NCBI GenBank assembly: GCA_028693235.1 | Contig: JAQUVW010000005.1 | Location: 62,001-126,000 of the forward strand | Source: Candidatus Gastranaerophilales bacterium | GTDB lineage: Bacteria > Cyanobacteriota > Vampirovibrionia > Gastranaerophilales > Gastranaerophilaceae | Direction of reading: 5' to 3' | Length of the DNA stretch: 64,000 nt | In this document: piece by piece, positions 28,085-58,896 of the stretch | How positions within the stretch are numbered: the stretch's first letter is position 1 | Layout of the letters: each line of letters opens with the position of its first letter | Position numbers and translations under genes: made by a program | The notes under the pieces: generated by a model | Told to the model about the DNA's origin: nothing | The model's input: only the letters and a program-made list of their open reading frames with translations | Databases searched by the model: none

Positions 28085-29134
28085 ATGAAATATAAAGATT
28101 ATTATGAAATATTAGGGGTTGACAGAAGTTCAACCGACGCCCAAATTAAATCTGCATATAGGAAATTAGCTCGAAAATATCATCCTGACGTAAATAAATC
28201 CGCTGACGCTGTTGATAAATTTAAAGATATCAACGAATCTTATGAGGTGCTTTCTGACAAAGAGAAACGCTCAAGATACGATAGTCTTGGTGCAAATTGG
28301 AATCAAGGTTCTGATTTTACGCCACCGCCGGGGTTCGATGGATTTAACTTTAATCAAGGAGGTTTTGGCGGTGGTCAAACTTATACACACGGGTTTGAAG
28401 GTGGCGGAGATTTCTCTGACTTTTTCAGCTCTTTGTTTGGTGATTTGATGGGTGGTCAACGTGCTCAAAGACAAAGACAGGGCGGTTTTTCTTATGAAGA
28501 TTTAGGCGGTTTTGCTTCTCGAGGACAAGCAAGGCAAAAAACTCATCCTAAAAATACAAATCTTGATGTTACTCAAGAATTAAATGTTTCAGCCAAAGAC
28601 CTTATGCAAGATAAGCCCATAAGTGTAAAATTAAATACCATGGAAAAATGTATGAAATGTAACGGTGTAGGCTCAATTTGCCATAGTTGCGGCGGAACGG
28701 GATTTGTTACAAATTCTAAAAATTTAAGCGTAAAAATTCCTAAAGGTATAAAAGAAGGTCAAAAAATCAGACTTTCAAAAGAGGGCAAATCTGATGATTA
28801 CGGTCAAAAAGGTGACTTGTATTTCGTTATAAAATTCAAAGATAAAGATTATACAATTAATGGCGAAGACTTGACTAAAGTGGTTGAAATAACACCATCT
28901 GATGCCGTATTGGGCTGCAAAAAAGATATTTCAACTCTCCATGGAACAGTCGGTATTAAAATCCCTGCTAAAACTCAATCAGGAAAAACATTACGATTAA
29001 AAGACTTAGGTCTGCCGAAAAAATCAGGTGGTTTTGGCAATCTAAATGTAAAAATTTCAATAAATATACCCTCAGACCTTTCAGAGGCTCAAATTGAGTT
29101 GTATAAAAAGTTGAGTGAGCTTGAAAAAAAATAG
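28085..29134 (+). CDS. DnaJ/CbpA-like co-chaperone with half-size zinc region
   Basis: 349 residues. J-domain 1-68 with HPD at 33-35, then a Gly/Phe-rich region (~75-150), C-terminal beta domains I and II. Between them is a short cysteine region with only two CxxCxG motifs (Cys189/192 and Cys199/202) instead of the four in DnaJ. CbpA has none, so this is intermediate. It would stimulate DnaK ATPase and bind substrates. No dnaK or grpE is nearby. AGGAG lies 9 bases before the ATG. Confidence 0.87.
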   Translation: MKYKDYYEILGVDRSSTDAQIKSAYRKLARKYHPDVNKSADAVDKFKDINESYEVLSDKEKRSRYDSLGANWNQGSDFTPPPGFDGFNFNQGGFGGGQTYTHGFEGGGDFSDFFSSLFGDLMGGQRAQRQRQGGFSYEDLGGFASRGQARQKTHPKNTNLDVTQELNVSAKDLMQDKPISVKLNTMEKCMKCNGVGSICHSCGGTGFVTNSKNLSVKIPKGIKEGQKIRLSKEGKSDDYGQKGDLYFVIKFKDKDYTINGEDLTKVVEITPSDAVLGCKKDISTLHGTVGIKIPAKTQSGKTLRLKDLGLPKKSGGFGNLNVKISINIPSDLSEAQIELYKKLSELEKK

Positions 29135-29150
29135 AAATATTTTAAAAAAA

Positions 29151-29642
29151 TTAAATATTCAAAAAGGTACAAAGCTTGTCCCAAATGCCTTTTAGCTTTT
29201 TAGAATGGGGTATTAGAGCTGATTGGTGATAGCCCTTATACTCCTGAATTATATTTTGTGGAAGTTCTTCACCTTTTTGCAGGGTGAATGCTATCATTTC
29301 TAAATATTCGTCTTGTTCTTGAGCGTAAGAAAAATCACGGCGTCTTAAATCGTCATCTGCCTCTCTATGACAAAGGGCATGCCAAGCTGTTTCAACGGAG
29401 CTGTCGTGCATGTCTTGAGGAAAATTTAGCAATGCTTCACGTACAGGTATTTTAGCTGTAAGAGCGGCGAAAATAAGCCTGCTTACGTGCATTCTTGCAT
29501 CTGATATATTTTGAGTTTTGAATGTAGCTTTTTCTTCAGCAGACATAAGCTTCTTTCTCTTTTTTACGAGTTTGAAGCTTGAAAGTTCGTCGCCCATTTT
29601 CTTAAAATAATTTAGAATATTTATTTTGCTAAACTTGAACAT
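29151..29642 (-). CDS. Uncharacterised protein co-transcribed with a BlaI-type repressor
   Basis: 163 residues, no signal peptide or membrane helix. The first ~40 residues are basic (KLVKKRKKLMSAEEK). A conserved-looking core has RMHVSRLIFAALTAKIPVREALLNFP and a His/Asp/Arg-rich segment (HALCHREADDDLRRRD). I do not recognise the family. The start overlaps the regulator gene by 22 bases; an alternative ATG at 29597 would remove the overlap. BlaI family regulators usually neighbour an M56 sensor peptidase, which this is not. Confidence 0.6.
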   Translation of the reverse strand: MFKFSKINILNYFKKMGDELSSFKLVKKRKKLMSAEEKATFKTQNISDARMHVSRLIFAALTAKIPVREALLNFPQDMHDSSVETAWHALCHREADDDLRRRDFSYAQEQDEYLEMIAFTLQKGEELPQNIIQEYKGYHQSALIPHSKKLKGIWDKLCTFLNI

Positions 29643-44815: not shown

Positions 44816-45616
44816 TTATAGAACGGCAGAATTTTGTATAAATAATTCAGGCGTTTTATTAATATTGTAGAATAGGCTTGCTGATTTTTGGAATTCTTCC
44901 GGAGCGGAACTAACTATAAATTTAGGTTCAAACAGTTGTTTGTCTGCACGTATGTTTGAATTTTGAATGTCATTTTTAATGTGTTCAACAAAGAAATCAG
45001 CAGGGTCAATAAACATATCTCTTGGTGCAAAATTTGATATTGTATCAAGCAGGTAGGGGTAGTGAGTGCAGCCGAGAATTATTTTTTCAACGTTATTATT
45101 TAACATATTTTTAACATATTTTTCAACCAAAGCAATGCTTTGAGGATTATCCTGAGTTCTGTGTTCTACGATTTGAACCCAACCGGGACAGCCGCTTTCA
45201 AATATTTTTAAAGAAGGTGCATATTTAATAATTTCTTTTGCGTAAGCGTGAGAGTCAGCAGTAGCCTGTGTTGATAGGACTCCGATACGTTTTATGCCTT
45301 GTTCAGCAATACATTTTGCTGCGACTTGGATTACGGGGTAAATTTTGAAGTCATAATCGTTTTTTAAAGAGTCATAAGTTAGGGCAGAAGTTGTGTTGCA
45401 CGCCATAACAACAGCTTTGACATTTTTTTCTTGAAAATAATCAAAGATGATTTTAGCCAGACTTATCAATTGTTCTTGAGATTTTGCTCCATAGGGCACA
45501 TTTTTGGTATCGCCGAAATAGATATAATTTTCATTTGGTAACAATTTTATAAGTTTGCTAAAGACGGTCAAACCGCCGACGCCTGAGTCAAATAATCCGA
45601 TAGGGTTGTTATTCAT
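44816..45616 (-). CDS. murI: Glutamate racemase MurI
   Basis: 266 residues. IGLFDSGVGGLTVFSKL at the start (Asp10, Ser11), YFGDTKNVPYG, catalytic Cys73 in MACNTTSA and second catalytic Cys183 in ILGCTHYPYL are all present. It makes D-glutamate for peptidoglycan from L-glutamate. Four bases separate it from the amidase gene upstream, so the two are probably one operon devoted to the cell wall. Confidence 0.97.
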   Translation of the reverse strand: MNNNPIGLFDSGVGGLTVFSKLIKLLPNENYIYFGDTKNVPYGAKSQEQLISLAKIIFDYFQEKNVKAVVMACNTTSALTYDSLKNDYDFKIYPVIQVAAKCIAEQGIKRIGVLSTQATADSHAYAKEIIKYAPSLKIFESGCPGWVQIVEHRTQDNPQSIALVEKYVKNMLNNNVEKIILGCTHYPYLLDTISNFAPRDMFIDPADFFVEHIKNDIQNSNIRADKQLFEPKFIVSSAPEEFQKSASLFYNINKTPELFIQNSAVL

Positions 45617-54698: not shown

Positions 54699-55967
54699 TT
54701 ATTTTCCGCAACTGCAAGTTAATGCTTTTTTCAAGACATCAACTTTGTCGGTATTTTCCCACGGAACAGATATATCGGCACGTCCCATGTGACCGTAAGC
54801 TGCTAGTTTTTGGTAGAATTTACCGCCATTTTTCTTAGGTAAGTTTCTAAGGTCGAATTGGTTGATGATAGAAACAGGTCTAAGGTCAAAGTTCTTTTTG
54901 ACTAATTCCATGATTTCATCATCAGAGATTTTGCCGGTGCCGAAAGTGTCAACTAAAATTGAGACAGGTTCAGCGACGCCGATAGCGTAGCCGAGTTCTA
55001 TTTCGCACTTAGAAGCAAGACCAGCTGCGACAATATTTTTAGCAACATATCTTGAAGCGTAAGCAGCAGAGCGGTCGACTTTCGTTGGGTCTTTTCCGCT
55101 GAATGCACCGCCACCATGTCTTGAGTATCCGCCGTAGGTATCTACGATAATTTTTCTTCCTGTTAGACCTGAGTCACCTTGAGGTCCGCCGATTACGAAT
55201 CTTCCTGATGGGTTGATTAAGTATTTTGTAGTTTCATCAGGTTTAAGTTCCTCGTTAGCAAAGACAGGTTCGATAACGTATTTAATAATGTCATTTTTAA
55301 TTTGTTCTTGAACTGCTTTGTTGTCAGAAACGCCATTGATTGAAGGGGCGTGTTGAGTAGAGATAACGACAGTGTCAATTCTTACAGGTTTGTCGTTTTC
55401 GTATTCTATGGTTACTTGAGATTTGCCATCGGGTCTTAAATAGTTTAAGGTTCCGTTTTTTCTGACTTCAGCAAGTTTCAAAGCCAATCGGTGAGCTAAG
55501 CTGATAGGTAGTGGCATAAGTTCCGGAGTTTCGTCACAAGCGAAACCGAACATGATACCTTGGTCACCGGCACCGATATCGTTAGTTTCTTCATCTTTGG
55601 TGTCAGCGTTGTTATCTCTTGATTCAAAAGCTTTGTTGACGCCACCTGCGATATCTGTAGATTGTTCATCAATGCTGGTTAATACAGCACAAGTGTTGCA
55701 GTCGAAACCGCCACCGGCAGAGCCTTCATAGCCGATATCTTTAATTGTATTTCTAACTACTTGAGGAATATCAACGTAGCAATCGGCGGTAATTTCGCCG
55801 CATACGAGTACCATTCCTGTAGTTACCGTTGTTTCAGCAGCGACTCTGGATTTAGGGTATTTTGACAAGAATTCGTCAAGAATAGCATCTGAAATTTGGT
55901 CGCAAACTTTGTCCGGATGTCCTTCTGTTACAGATTCAGAAGTAAATAAGTATTTTTTAGAACTCAT
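54699..55967 (-). CDS. metK: S-adenosylmethionine synthetase MetK
   Basis: 422 residues, slightly longer than the E. coli enzyme. The conserved segments are [70 protein letters not shown] and [19 protein letters not shown]. It makes AdoMet from methionine and ATP. The upstream region has no recognisable SAM riboswitch; instead a 17-base sequence also seen before proS, then the minisatellite. The start is chosen at the ATG with GAAAGAGAAAAATG upstream. Confidence 0.98.
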
Positions 55968-56071
55968 TTTTCTCTTTCTTTCTAATTATTCTCCGAGTAG
56001 GTTTTTGTACATTCAGTTATTCTGTGCTGTGGTATTTGGGCTTTAGTTTTTGATTTGACATGTTAACCTGC

Positions 56072-56324
56072 ATCTGTCGCTTTTGTCTTAAGTTTGGCTG
56101 TTTTATTATGCCAACTCGCCATCTGCCGCTTTTGTTTCAGTTTGACTGTTTTATTATGCCAACTCGCCATCTGCCGCTTTTGTTTCAGTTTGGCTGTTTT
56201 ATTATGCCAACTCGCCATCTGCCGCTTTTGTCTTAAGTTTGGCTGTTTTATTATGTCAACTCGCCATCTGCCGCTTTTGTTTCAGTTTGGCTGTTTTATT
56301 ATGTCAACTCGCCATCTGCCGCTT
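56072..56324. repeat. Minisatellite, five 48/49-bp units plus a partial copy
   Basis: Units begin with ATCTGCCGCTTTTGT and end with CAACTCGCC: 56072-56120 (49 bp), 56121-56168 (48), 56169-56216 (48), 56217-56265 (49), 56266-56313 (48), then a partial one to 56324. Differences are scattered (TCTTAAG versus TTTCAG, TTTGACTG versus TTTGGCTG, ATGCC versus ATGTC). The 1-bp length difference shifts any reading frame, so it is not coding despite an open frame over it. It lies between divergently arranged metK and the rpsO terminator. Function unknown. Confidence 0.93.
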
Positions 56325-56442
56325 CGATACCTTAGCCCCCCTCGGAAGGGTGTTTCGGAAATTTGGGTTATAATTTCTTTAACACAAACTAACCTTAAGA
56401 AAATATTAATTCAAAAGCCGAATTAGGTCAAACCTTTCAATA

Positions 56443-56469
56443 AAAAACGCCCCTTTAAAGAGCGTTTTT
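56443..56469. terminator. Terminator downstream of rpsO
   Basis: AAAAACGC-CCCTTTAAAG-AGCGTTTTT, a hairpin with A- and T-tracts, about 37 bases past the rpsO stop (minus strand). One mismatch in the inner stem. It could also stop transcripts from the left. Confidence 0.85.
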
Positions 56470-56505
56470 GTTACATATTGTTTTATTATTTCAGAGTAAA
56501 TAAAA

Positions 56506-56775
56506 TTAGCCTCTGATGTTTAATTTTTTCAAGATATCTCTGTAAGAATCAAGATTTTTATTTTTTAAATATGCAAGAAGTTGTTTTCTTTGACCAACCA
56601 TCATCAAAAGCCCACGTCTTCCTTGGAAATCTTTTTGGTTAGCTTTCAAGTGTTCAGTAAGCTCGTTAATTTTTTGGCTAAGTAGAGCTATTTGAACTTC
56701 CGCACTACCTGTATCTTTGCCGTCTTTGCCGAATTTTTCTATGATTTCAGCTTTGTTTTTCAAGTTAATTGACAT
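56506..56775 (-). CDS. rpsO: 30S ribosomal protein S15
   Basis: 89 residues, exactly the usual length. KAEIIEKFGKDGKDTGSAEVQIALLSQKINELTEHLK at the start, then DFQGRRGLLMMVGQRKQLLAYLKNKNLDSYRDILKKLNIRG. It binds helix 20-22 of 16S rRNA. GGAATAAGAAATG is the start context. It often neighbours pnp, which is not here; a possible -10 box (TATAAT on the minus strand) lies at 56820-56825. Confidence 0.98.
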   Translation of the reverse strand: MSINLKNKAEIIEKFGKDGKDTGSAEVQIALLSQKINELTEHLKANQKDFQGRRGLLMMVGQRKQLLAYLKNKNLDSYRDILKKLNIRG

Positions 56776-56977
56776 TTCTTATTCCTTTTTTCTTATTATT
56801 TTATATTGGTGTGTAAACTATTATATTACAAAAGAGTTCATTACTAATAGTAGTGTAACGATAATATCACTTCAAGATTTATTTGCAAATGTTAAAAAAT
56901 ATTAGGAAAAAATTTACAAAAGGCAATTTTTAGAATTGAGCAATCTTATTTTATGGGTAAGAAAACGGAGTGTTAAA

Positions 56978-57328
56978 ATGAGCAACGTGAATTTTTGCGG
57001 AAGAGTCCCTGTGAAGATGAATCAGTATGTGAAGAACGCATCAGCAGAAAAAATTGCAGCAAATATAAATGACGCATTTCACGCAATGGGAAGCAAACAT
57101 TTACGCCCCGTTTCAGGCAAATCTTTGATGGAAATTAATACTGATTGCTTTGATAAAAAGACGCATCTTTTAACCGAACAAGGCAAAAAATGTTTTGATA
57201 AAGTAAACAAACAAATTGATGTTACAACAGATTCAACGATGGGCGATTATTACCGAGCTATGGTCGGATATATCCAAAACTTTTCTTTTGAGGGCATGGT
57301 TTCCAGATTTTTTGATACTTTCCAATAA
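56978..57328 (+). CDS. Small hypothetical protein with N-terminal FCG motif
   Basis: 116 residues from the ATG at 56978, which has ACGGAG upstream; an in-frame TTG at 56936 is unlikely. The N-terminus is MSNVNFCGRVPVKMNQYVKNAS. The middle has AANINDAFHAMGSKHLRPVSGKSLMEINTDCFDKKT and the end is aromatic-rich (YYRAMVGYIQNFSFEGMVSRFFDTF). No domain recognised. It stands alone between rpsO (divergent) and gltX. The FxG start resembles that of the 48345 gene. Confidence 0.6.
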   Translation: MSNVNFCGRVPVKMNQYVKNASAEKIAANINDAFHAMGSKHLRPVSGKSLMEINTDCFDKKTHLLTEQGKKCFDKVNKQIDVTTDSTMGDYYRAMVGYIQNFSFEGMVSRFFDTFQ

Positions 57329-57426
57329 AATTATTCTGCACACATTTTTTCTTTGAGTTAAAATAGACTTGCATAGGAGATATCCTAGTTTGCAATAGAA
57401 TTAATGAATAAGTCACGGAGAAAAAA

Positions 57427-58896
57427 ATGAGTAATATCAGAGTAAGAATTGCCCCCTCACCGAGTGGAAATTTGCATATAGGTACTGCAAGAACTGCATT
57501 GTTCAACTATTTATTTGCAAAAAAAATGGGCGGCACTTTCGTTTTGAGAATTGAAGATACTGACGCTGAAAGAACAAGCCAAGCATATATTGATAATATT
57601 TTTGATAGCTTGAAGGCATTAGGCTTGAATTGGGATGAAGGTCCTGATATTGGTGGTGAATACGGTCCTTATACTCAATCTGAAAGATTTGATATTTACC
57701 CTAAATATATCAAAAAACTTTTGGATAACGGCTTTGCTTACGAATGTTTCTGCACTCCTGAGGAATTGCAGGCTGAAAAAGAAGAAGCAACAAAAAATAA
57801 AAAACCTTATGTTTATTCAAAAAAATGTGAGAATTTGACAGAAGAAGAAAAAAATAAATTGAGAGCAGAAGGCAGAAAACCTGCGATAAGATTTTCCATT
57901 GAAAAAGCCCAAAAAGCTTTTCATGATACCAATATGTTGACTTTTGAAGATATGGTTAAAGGTCATTTGCACCAAGATACTTCTTTAATCGGCGACTTTG
58001 TAATTATGAAATCAAACGGTTCTCCGACATACAACTTTGCCGTTGTTATAGATGATATGTTGATGAAAATTTCTCATATTATTCGTGGTGAAGACCATAT
58101 TTCAAATACTTTCAAACAAATCTTGATATATGAAGCTTTGGGGGCAGAAGTTCCTGAATTTGGTCATCTTGGTATGATTCTTGCTCCGGATAGAAGCAAA
58201 CTTTCAAAACGCCACGGTGCTACTGCCGTAAGTGAATTTGTAGAAAAAGGTTATTTGACAGATGCTTTGATTAACTTTGTTGCACTTCTCGGTTGGGCAC
58301 CATCAGACGGTGAAGAAATTAAATCTGTCGATGAAATCGCAAATGATTTTAGAATCAATGAAATATCTTCTTCTAATTCAATTTTTGAATATGAAAAATT
58401 GAACTGGATGAACGGTCAATATATTAAAAAAATGGAGATTAAAAAGCTTACAGAAATGGCAAAACCCTATCTTGCTTGCTATGACTTGACTACATTAACA
58501 GAAGAACAACTTGAAAAAGTCATAGAAATTACTCGTGAGCCTATTACAATTCTTTCTGATTTGACAGATGACGTTAAATATTTCTTTGGAAAGGATGTTG
58601 AAGTAGAAGAAAAAGTTCAAATAGAGGTTTTGGATACAGAACTTTCTCAAAATGTTTTGAAAGAAGCAATGAATAGAGTTGATGAATGGGCATTTGATGA
58701 TTCTGAAAAACTTCATGAACAATTAGCTGACTTTAGAGCCTATTTCAAAGAACAACACGGAATTAAGCCAAAGCAAACAATGTGGGCTCTTAGAGCTGCT
58801 ACTACAGGTAGAACCCACGGTGCTGATATGGTTGCAACTTTCGAAATCGTTGGCAAAGACAGAATTAAACATAGAATTGAAAAAGCTATAAAATAG
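57427..58896 (+). CDS. gltX: Glutamyl-tRNA synthetase
   Basis: 489 residues, class I. PSPSGNLHIGTARTALFNYLFA has the HIGH motif (HIGT), and SKLSKRHGA is the KMSKS motif. It charges tRNA(Glu), and possibly tRNA(Gln) if GatCAB is used; no glnS is in view. The C-terminal part (~300-489) is the helical anticodon domain. The ATG at 57427 has ACGGAG upstream. A hairpin terminator follows. Confidence 0.97.
   Translation: MSNIRVRIAPSPSGNLHIGTARTALFNYLFAKKMGGTFVLRIEDTDAERTSQAYIDNIFDSLKALGLNWDEGPDIGGEYGPYTQSERFDIYPKYIKKLLDNGFAYECFCTPEELQAEKEEATKNKKPYVYSKKCENLTEEEKNKLRAEGRKPAIRFSIEKAQKAFHDTNMLTFEDMVKGHLHQDTSLIGDFVIMKSNGSPTYNFAVVIDDMLMKISHIIRGEDHISNTFKQILIYEALGAEVPEFGHLGMILAPDRSKLSKRHGATAVSEFVEKGYLTDALINFVALLGWAPSDGEEIKSVDEIANDFRINEISSSNSIFEYEKLNWMNGQYIKKMEIKKLTEMAKPYLACYDLTTLTEEQLEKVIEITREPITILSDLTDDVKYFFGKDVEVEEKVQIEVLDTELSQNVLKEAMNRVDEWAFDDSEKLHEQLADFRAYFKEQHGIKPKQTMWALRAATTGRTHGADMVATFEIVGKDRIKHRIEKAIK

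Follow-up and report, generated by a model that had tools for sequence, protein, structure and literature searches.

Minisatellites and VNTR loci are built of units of roughly 10-100 bp that follow one another head to tail, and their copy number varies between strains. Those located between bacterial genes are formed by tandem units of tens of base pairs without spacers, have sharp edges, occupy one locus and display a high identity between their units. Dispersed repeats of the REP, ERIC or BOX kind are present in many copies per genome. Two published systems can be compared most closely with the locus described here. One is BrickBuilt of Porphyromonas gingivalis, which is described as a minisatellite-bearing MITE with 19 copies in one genome and small inverted-repeat ends (PMC4596501). 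The other comprises 144 tandem repeats of Mycoplasma hyopneumoniae, for which qPCR data and expression differences associated with repeat number are reported (PMC5179023). A literature search that paired Gastranaerophilales with tandem repeats or with a riboswitch returned no relevant paper.

We analysed a window of 64,000 nucleotides, i.e. the whole stretch of DNA introduced above, which belongs to a genome of 2,099,696 bases in 7 contigs. In this window, TRF identified a tandem array at 56071-56324 (254 bp, period 48, 5.2 copies, 95% matches) with a score of 448; when the window was shuffled 50 times with its dinucleotides preserved, the maximum score was 66. The array consists of five units, located in + strand coordinates at 56071-56119 (unit 1, 49 bp), 56120-56167 (unit 2, 48 bp), 56168-56215 (unit 3, 48 bp), 56216-56264 (unit 4, 49 bp) and 56265-56312 (unit 5, 48 bp), and an end fragment at 56313-56324 (12 bp). 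It is assigned to the minus strand, which is the strand of the presumed leader RNA discussed below. Alignment of the units revealed four variable places among them, namely C/T, TCTTAAG/TTTCAG (the long-short difference), G/A and C/T; a GTC/GCC difference is common to units 4 and 5 and absent from units 1-3. The five 48- or 49-bp units plus fragment, their long-short-short-long-short order and the TCTTAAG/TTTCAG difference had all been recognised in an earlier sequence-only reading of this DNA, although with 56072 as the start position. That reading had also stated that the window contains no other tandem arrays, and indeed the two remaining TRF rows (29124-29165, score 56; 45094-45123, score 51) were inside the range of the shuffles.

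With these values of period, copy number and matches, the array falls under the definition of a minisatellite and is a candidate VNTR. It shares with bacterial intergenic VNTR loci the tandem units of tens of base pairs, the absence of spacers, the sharp edges, the single locus and the high unit identity. By comparison with relatives, it differs from an ordinary intergenic VNTR in that it probably occupies the leader of an essential gene and follows the promoter of this gene, and it is known here from one genome of the genus. The units abut without spacers in the unit alignment, which distinguishes the array from a CRISPR array with its unique spacers. The edges of the array are sharp: local alignment of the flanks (55968-56070, 56325-56396 and 56325-56436) to the unit was no better than that of shuffles, and a weak flank-unit alignment that resembled a decayed unit was lost in this comparison. 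The G+C content of the array (0.43) exceeds that of the window (0.35) and that of the corresponding gaps in relatives (0.19-0.36).

The possibility that the unit is a known dispersed element had been raised as a check on the array, and the searches spoke against it. The own genome was queried with the array, with a 25-base core (three mismatches at most) and with the entire 538-bp gap in which the array is located, and the array locus, which sits inside a 190,651-base contig, was the only one found. This single locus in 2.1 Mb contrasts with the many copies of REP/ERIC/BOX-like repeats. The 190 other genomes of the family, for which about four candidates per genome were scored, yielded no array of the unit, and the same was true for the 29 non-self loci fetched from this search. 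The best family match (genome G180) covered 30 bp with 90% identity at an E-value of 1.4e-4, which applies to one genome among 190, and both this match and the next one are T-rich. In the genomes of 84,980 species, a 30-mer of the unit had no exact match, while a 20-mer had two, one in Enterococcus gallinarum and one in Muricauda. Closer examination revealed that these matches extend to 23-24 identical bases; since both are located within long ORFs, presumably those of a response regulator and a GAPDH, where the stretch encodes AADGEL, they were taken as chance matches. A 21-mer of the unit had no match in viral contigs, and the unit had none in phage and plasmid records. Altogether, none of the searches in the genome, the family, phages, plasmids, viral contigs and the species-wide collection yielded a second array, and a dispersed element was therefore rejected.

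BrickBuilt resembles the array in having tandem intergenic units without spacers that are flanked by other DNA (PMC4596501); unlike BrickBuilt, the array is present at one locus and has no inverted ends beyond chance. The best inverted match between the flanks scored 15, a value reached by 463 of 1000 shuffles, and the 16 imperfect inverted pairs found in the gap at 6-base seeds, several short ones of which join the flanks, were likewise taken as chance. A target-site-like direct match between the flanks was equalled in 207 of 1000 shuffles. A MITE carrying a minisatellite was thus dismissed, as neither terminal inverted repeats nor multiple genomic copies were found. The repeats of M. hyopneumoniae are similar to the array in being situated in the 5' upstream regions of genes, where they have been proposed to affect expression (PMC5179023); unlike these repeats, the array represents one locus and is known here from sequence alone.

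Other repeats were observed in the same genome. Within a sample of 371,760 bases, all other arrays that had a unit of at least 20 bp in 4 or more copies were 51-bp repeats and 153-bp multiples inside long ORFs. Long ORFs made up largely of 17-residue repeats (51-bp units) and with related ends are present at L129:2-2197 and L134:3-2702, and we take them to resemble large surface proteins that carry a chaperone-like domain at the C-terminus. A 121-bp unit is repeated 2.3 times with 99% identity beside tRNA-Leu(gag) (L129:3727-4009, contig C1). By eye, each of these units repeats a short piece of the end of the tRNA gene, a pattern that repeated integration at the tRNA end might leave. A resemblance of the upstream leader to this 121-bp repeat was discarded, as it was not among the 30 matches listed from a local BLAST search with the whole gap.

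The array is flanked by two minus-strand genes, rpsO being the first and metK the second in the direction of transcription, and Pfam confirmed the names that the sequence-only reading had given them. metK (54699-55967) encodes an S-adenosylmethionine synthetase of 422 aa with three S-AdoMet_synt domains, and rpsO (56506-56775) encodes the 89-aa ribosomal protein S15 with a Ribosomal_S15 match. Beyond rpsO, a 116-aa ORF without a Pfam match is located on the + strand at 56978-57328, between rpsO and the next large ORF. The rpsO loci of 29 relatives were fetched with about 1.5 kb per side where the contig allowed this, and metK adjoins rpsO in four of them. The set was widened by searching the genera of two of these four (41 + 5 genomes, with matches in 39 + 5 and loci from 30 + 5). 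Among the resulting 36 relatives, metK immediately follows rpsO in 32, the sequence runs into a contig end in two, and the 1,500 bases downstream are without metK in the other two. The rpsO-metK gap measures 538 bp in the window compared to 97-166 bp (median 130) in the 32 relatives of the same gene order, which are not independent as 26 belong to one genus, 5 to a second and 1 to a third. No comparable array was detected in these 32 gaps, where the highest TRF score was 44, nor in the metK loci of 29 relatives with flanks of up to 1.5 kb. A tree built from 30 metK proteins places the metK of the window together with those of exactly the four relatives that were first found to have the same gene order (support 99/98). 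The short gap is therefore likely to be the ancestral state.

The gaps of the relatives also point to the position of the metK promoter. The pattern TTGAC-N17/18-TANNNT is present in 23 of the 32 gaps, where it ends 33-49 nt before metK; by genus, it occurs in 22 of 26, 0 of 5 and 1 of 1 relatives. In dinucleotide-shuffled gaps the pattern was found in a mean of 0.145 and a maximum of 2 of 32, and on the opposite strand it was found in none, but it should be noted that the pattern was picked after inspection of the first few gaps. In the window, a putative ancestral metK promoter, TTGACC-17-TAATAT, is located on the minus strand at 56403-56431. The consensus scan alone was weak in this respect (10 sites found versus 6.2 expected); the assignment also draws on the pattern in the relatives and on an alignment of the window promoter with the promoter of two of them. 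This promoter ends 435 nt upstream of the metK start and directly follows a stem-loop with a T-run after rpsO (56443-56469, minus strand; inverted repeat I10, 85% complementary), which is terminator-like although the terminator scan listed no terminator at this position. The promoter has been retained upstream, at a distance of 435 nt from metK, and the additional DNA has therefore probably been acquired between it and the start codon. The earlier reading had placed the array between metK and rpsO; the comparison suggests more specifically that it occupies the 5' leader of metK, on the downstream side of a promoter common to the relatives.

The explanation that we consider likely is that the array is a lineage-specific minisatellite, which arose in the 5' untranslated leader of metK, grew by slippage or unequal exchange and is near-neutral. 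About 400 bp of extra DNA, 254 bp of which are the array, would now separate the start of metK from its old promoter. Growth of the array would have occurred by slipped-strand mispairing or by unequal exchange between its copies, and the metK transcript would include the array in its leader. Among the relatives searched, the array was probably gained in this lineage only. The main effect would be that the distance from the -10 element to the start codon is now 435 nt instead of the former 33-49 nt, and the effect of the array as such would probably be near-neutral. The units differ at only four places, as would be expected for a recent expansion, and the expansion looks fairly recent. A block duplication had been proposed from the alternation of long and short units. 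This alternation is real, but a simple two-unit copy would need an extra change, because units 4 and 5 share the GTC/GCC difference. Roughly 150 bp of the extra leader are non-repetitive and are not accounted for by minisatellite expansion. The leader segments between the promoter and the array (56325-56402) and between the array and the metK start (55968-56070), both on the minus strand, contain no unit residue as judged by local alignment against shuffles, and the former has no second copy in the genome. Furthermore, the high G+C content of the array fits less obviously with the expansion of a local seed.

No sign of a function was found for the array. A counterpoint to this reading is the promoter-like TGNCATAAT in each unit on the metK strand, which leaves room for a function. 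Accordingly, the five units might represent five weak promoters whose copy number tunes the expression of the SAM synthetase. This extended -10-like TG(A/G)CATAAT accounts for five of the 13 TGN[CT]ATAAT sites on the metK strand of the 64-kb window (8 are on the other strand), and the literature offers precedents, both for a relation between repeat number and expression in M. hyopneumoniae (PMC5179023) and for promoter elements in BrickBuilt repeats (PMC4596501). However, all five sites go back to the copying of a single one and their count is hence not independent evidence, no -35/-10 pair was found within the array by the rules of the scan, and the promoter common to the relatives is still present upstream. 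We regard such a tandem promoter array as unlikely. Somewhat less likely still is a copy-number rheostat, in which slippage would alter the number of weak promoters or the leader length and cells of one population would differ in their SAM supply; the lineage concerned lacks the conserved metK leader hairpin that is found in most of the family. It also appears improbable that hairpins repeated in the metK leader affect translation or mRNA stability. An imperfect hairpin is possible within a unit (AGTTGGC with GCCAAACT), and single units with 6 nt added per side fold at -7.1 to -10.0 kcal/mol on the metK strand. Yet, this hairpin is the minimum-energy fold in only one of the five units, its stem has an A-C mismatch in units 4 and 5, and the fold of the whole array is not significant, with a z-score of -1.55 for the metK strand, a value reached by 13 of 200 shuffles, and of +1.04 for the opposite strand. 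Moreover, removal of the array hardly alters how open the last 63 nt are predicted to be (0.517 versus 0.503; 0.581 for the metK-side flank alone). Rfam gave no gathering-level match in the window and two sub-threshold matches in the array locus (L067), neither of which is within the array.

A protein-binding array, in which the operator-like dyad TTGGC-N11-GCCAA of each unit would cluster or titrate a DNA-binding protein, is comparably improbable. The dyad is visible and recurs at a spacing of about 48 bp, but it is perfect in units 1 and 3 only, two of the four variable sites are within its ten half-site bases, and the unit was found nowhere else in the genome. No DnaA-box consensus was present on the + strand of positions 55001-57500, the strand scanned. 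Repeats are a usual place for copy-number errors, and the array might reflect an assembly artefact or a wrong repeat count in the deposited genome. However, four sites tell the units apart, the array measures 254 bp and the locus is inside a large contig of a 7-contig genome, which makes such an error very improbable. The least credible explanation is a coding repeat, whereby a + strand ORF (56094-56426, 110 aa, TTG start) would make a repeated hydrophobic peptide. This ORF is open across most of the array, which qualifies the earlier statement that the array does not encode a repeated peptide, but the statement otherwise holds: the 49-bp unit changes the frame of the repeat, so that it is not read in one frame, and the ORF has no Pfam match. 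In addition, the ORF is antisense to the presumed leader, and none of the relatives searched has the array. Among the possibilities named in the sequence-only reading, slippage-prone DNA is thus best supported, while no support was obtained for an RNA scaffold or a protein-binding array, bearing in mind that the two variable sites in the only obvious dyad are drawn from as few as four sites.

Two further observations concern the leaders of rpsO and metK. The upstream part of rpsO (L067:3518-3635, minus strand) has a sub-threshold match to the ribosomal S15 leader (23.1 bits versus 39.5, E-value 0.44). A conserved hairpin is located just before metK in most of the family and is absent from the genome of the window. 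The pattern CGGGTYGGAATTAAAAAMCTTACCG, with at most 3 mismatches, was found in 120 of 181 family genomes (own genome included) and 26 of 41 genera, and the reversed pattern in none. In all 45 loci found by script, some of which represent one genome twice, metK starts 23-74 nt downstream of the motif. Of 382 genomes from the class, 132 contained a stricter form with a downstream AATTAAGGAG, and all of these 132 belong to this family. Examples of the motif GCCGGGTYGGAATTAAAAAMCTTACCGGC with a downstream AATTAAGGAGA are found in relatives at L076:1444-1491 (+), L078:2781-2859 (-) and L087:1400-1492 (+). In the metK tree, the hairpin is clustered in one part, which is not that of the window (one row without hairpin, L085, is cut by the contig end).

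The hairpin was aligned for 29 distinct sequences after removal of duplicates and of loci truncated by a contig end. Three of its six stem pairs show changes on both sides (in 10, 5 and 1 sequences) and three never vary; the outermost stem pair cannot form in 16 of 28 sequences, nor the adjacent one in 5 of 29. The covariation was above that of all 500 shuffles, which ignore the relatedness of the sequences. The loop CUUA can pair with the Shine-Dalgarno UAAG in 29 of 29 sequences, both being invariant, while 9 of the 29 cannot form a fifth pair; a pseudoknot with the ribosome-binding site is therefore possible, though not proven. In 15 loci with the motif, no Rfam family reached its gathering score over the motif, and one sub-threshold overlap was with freshwater-2 RNA (L094, 26.7 bits versus 49.9, E-value 6.5). 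The hairpin is similar by gene context to the SAM/SAH riboswitch, which is described upstream of metK in Rhodobacterales (PMC2864571). A search of the riboswitch literature for the family hairpin returned papers on other SAM classes. We propose the hairpin as a candidate for a new SAM-sensing RNA or riboswitch.

As a minisatellite, the array is ordinary, and it represents a clean case in which an essential gene has gained a repeat in what is likely to be its leader. Because the short gap and the promoter pattern are known from relatives, the effect of the array on expression is testable. The metK leader hairpin of most family genomes, which is without a gathering-level Rfam match, deserves a study of its own.
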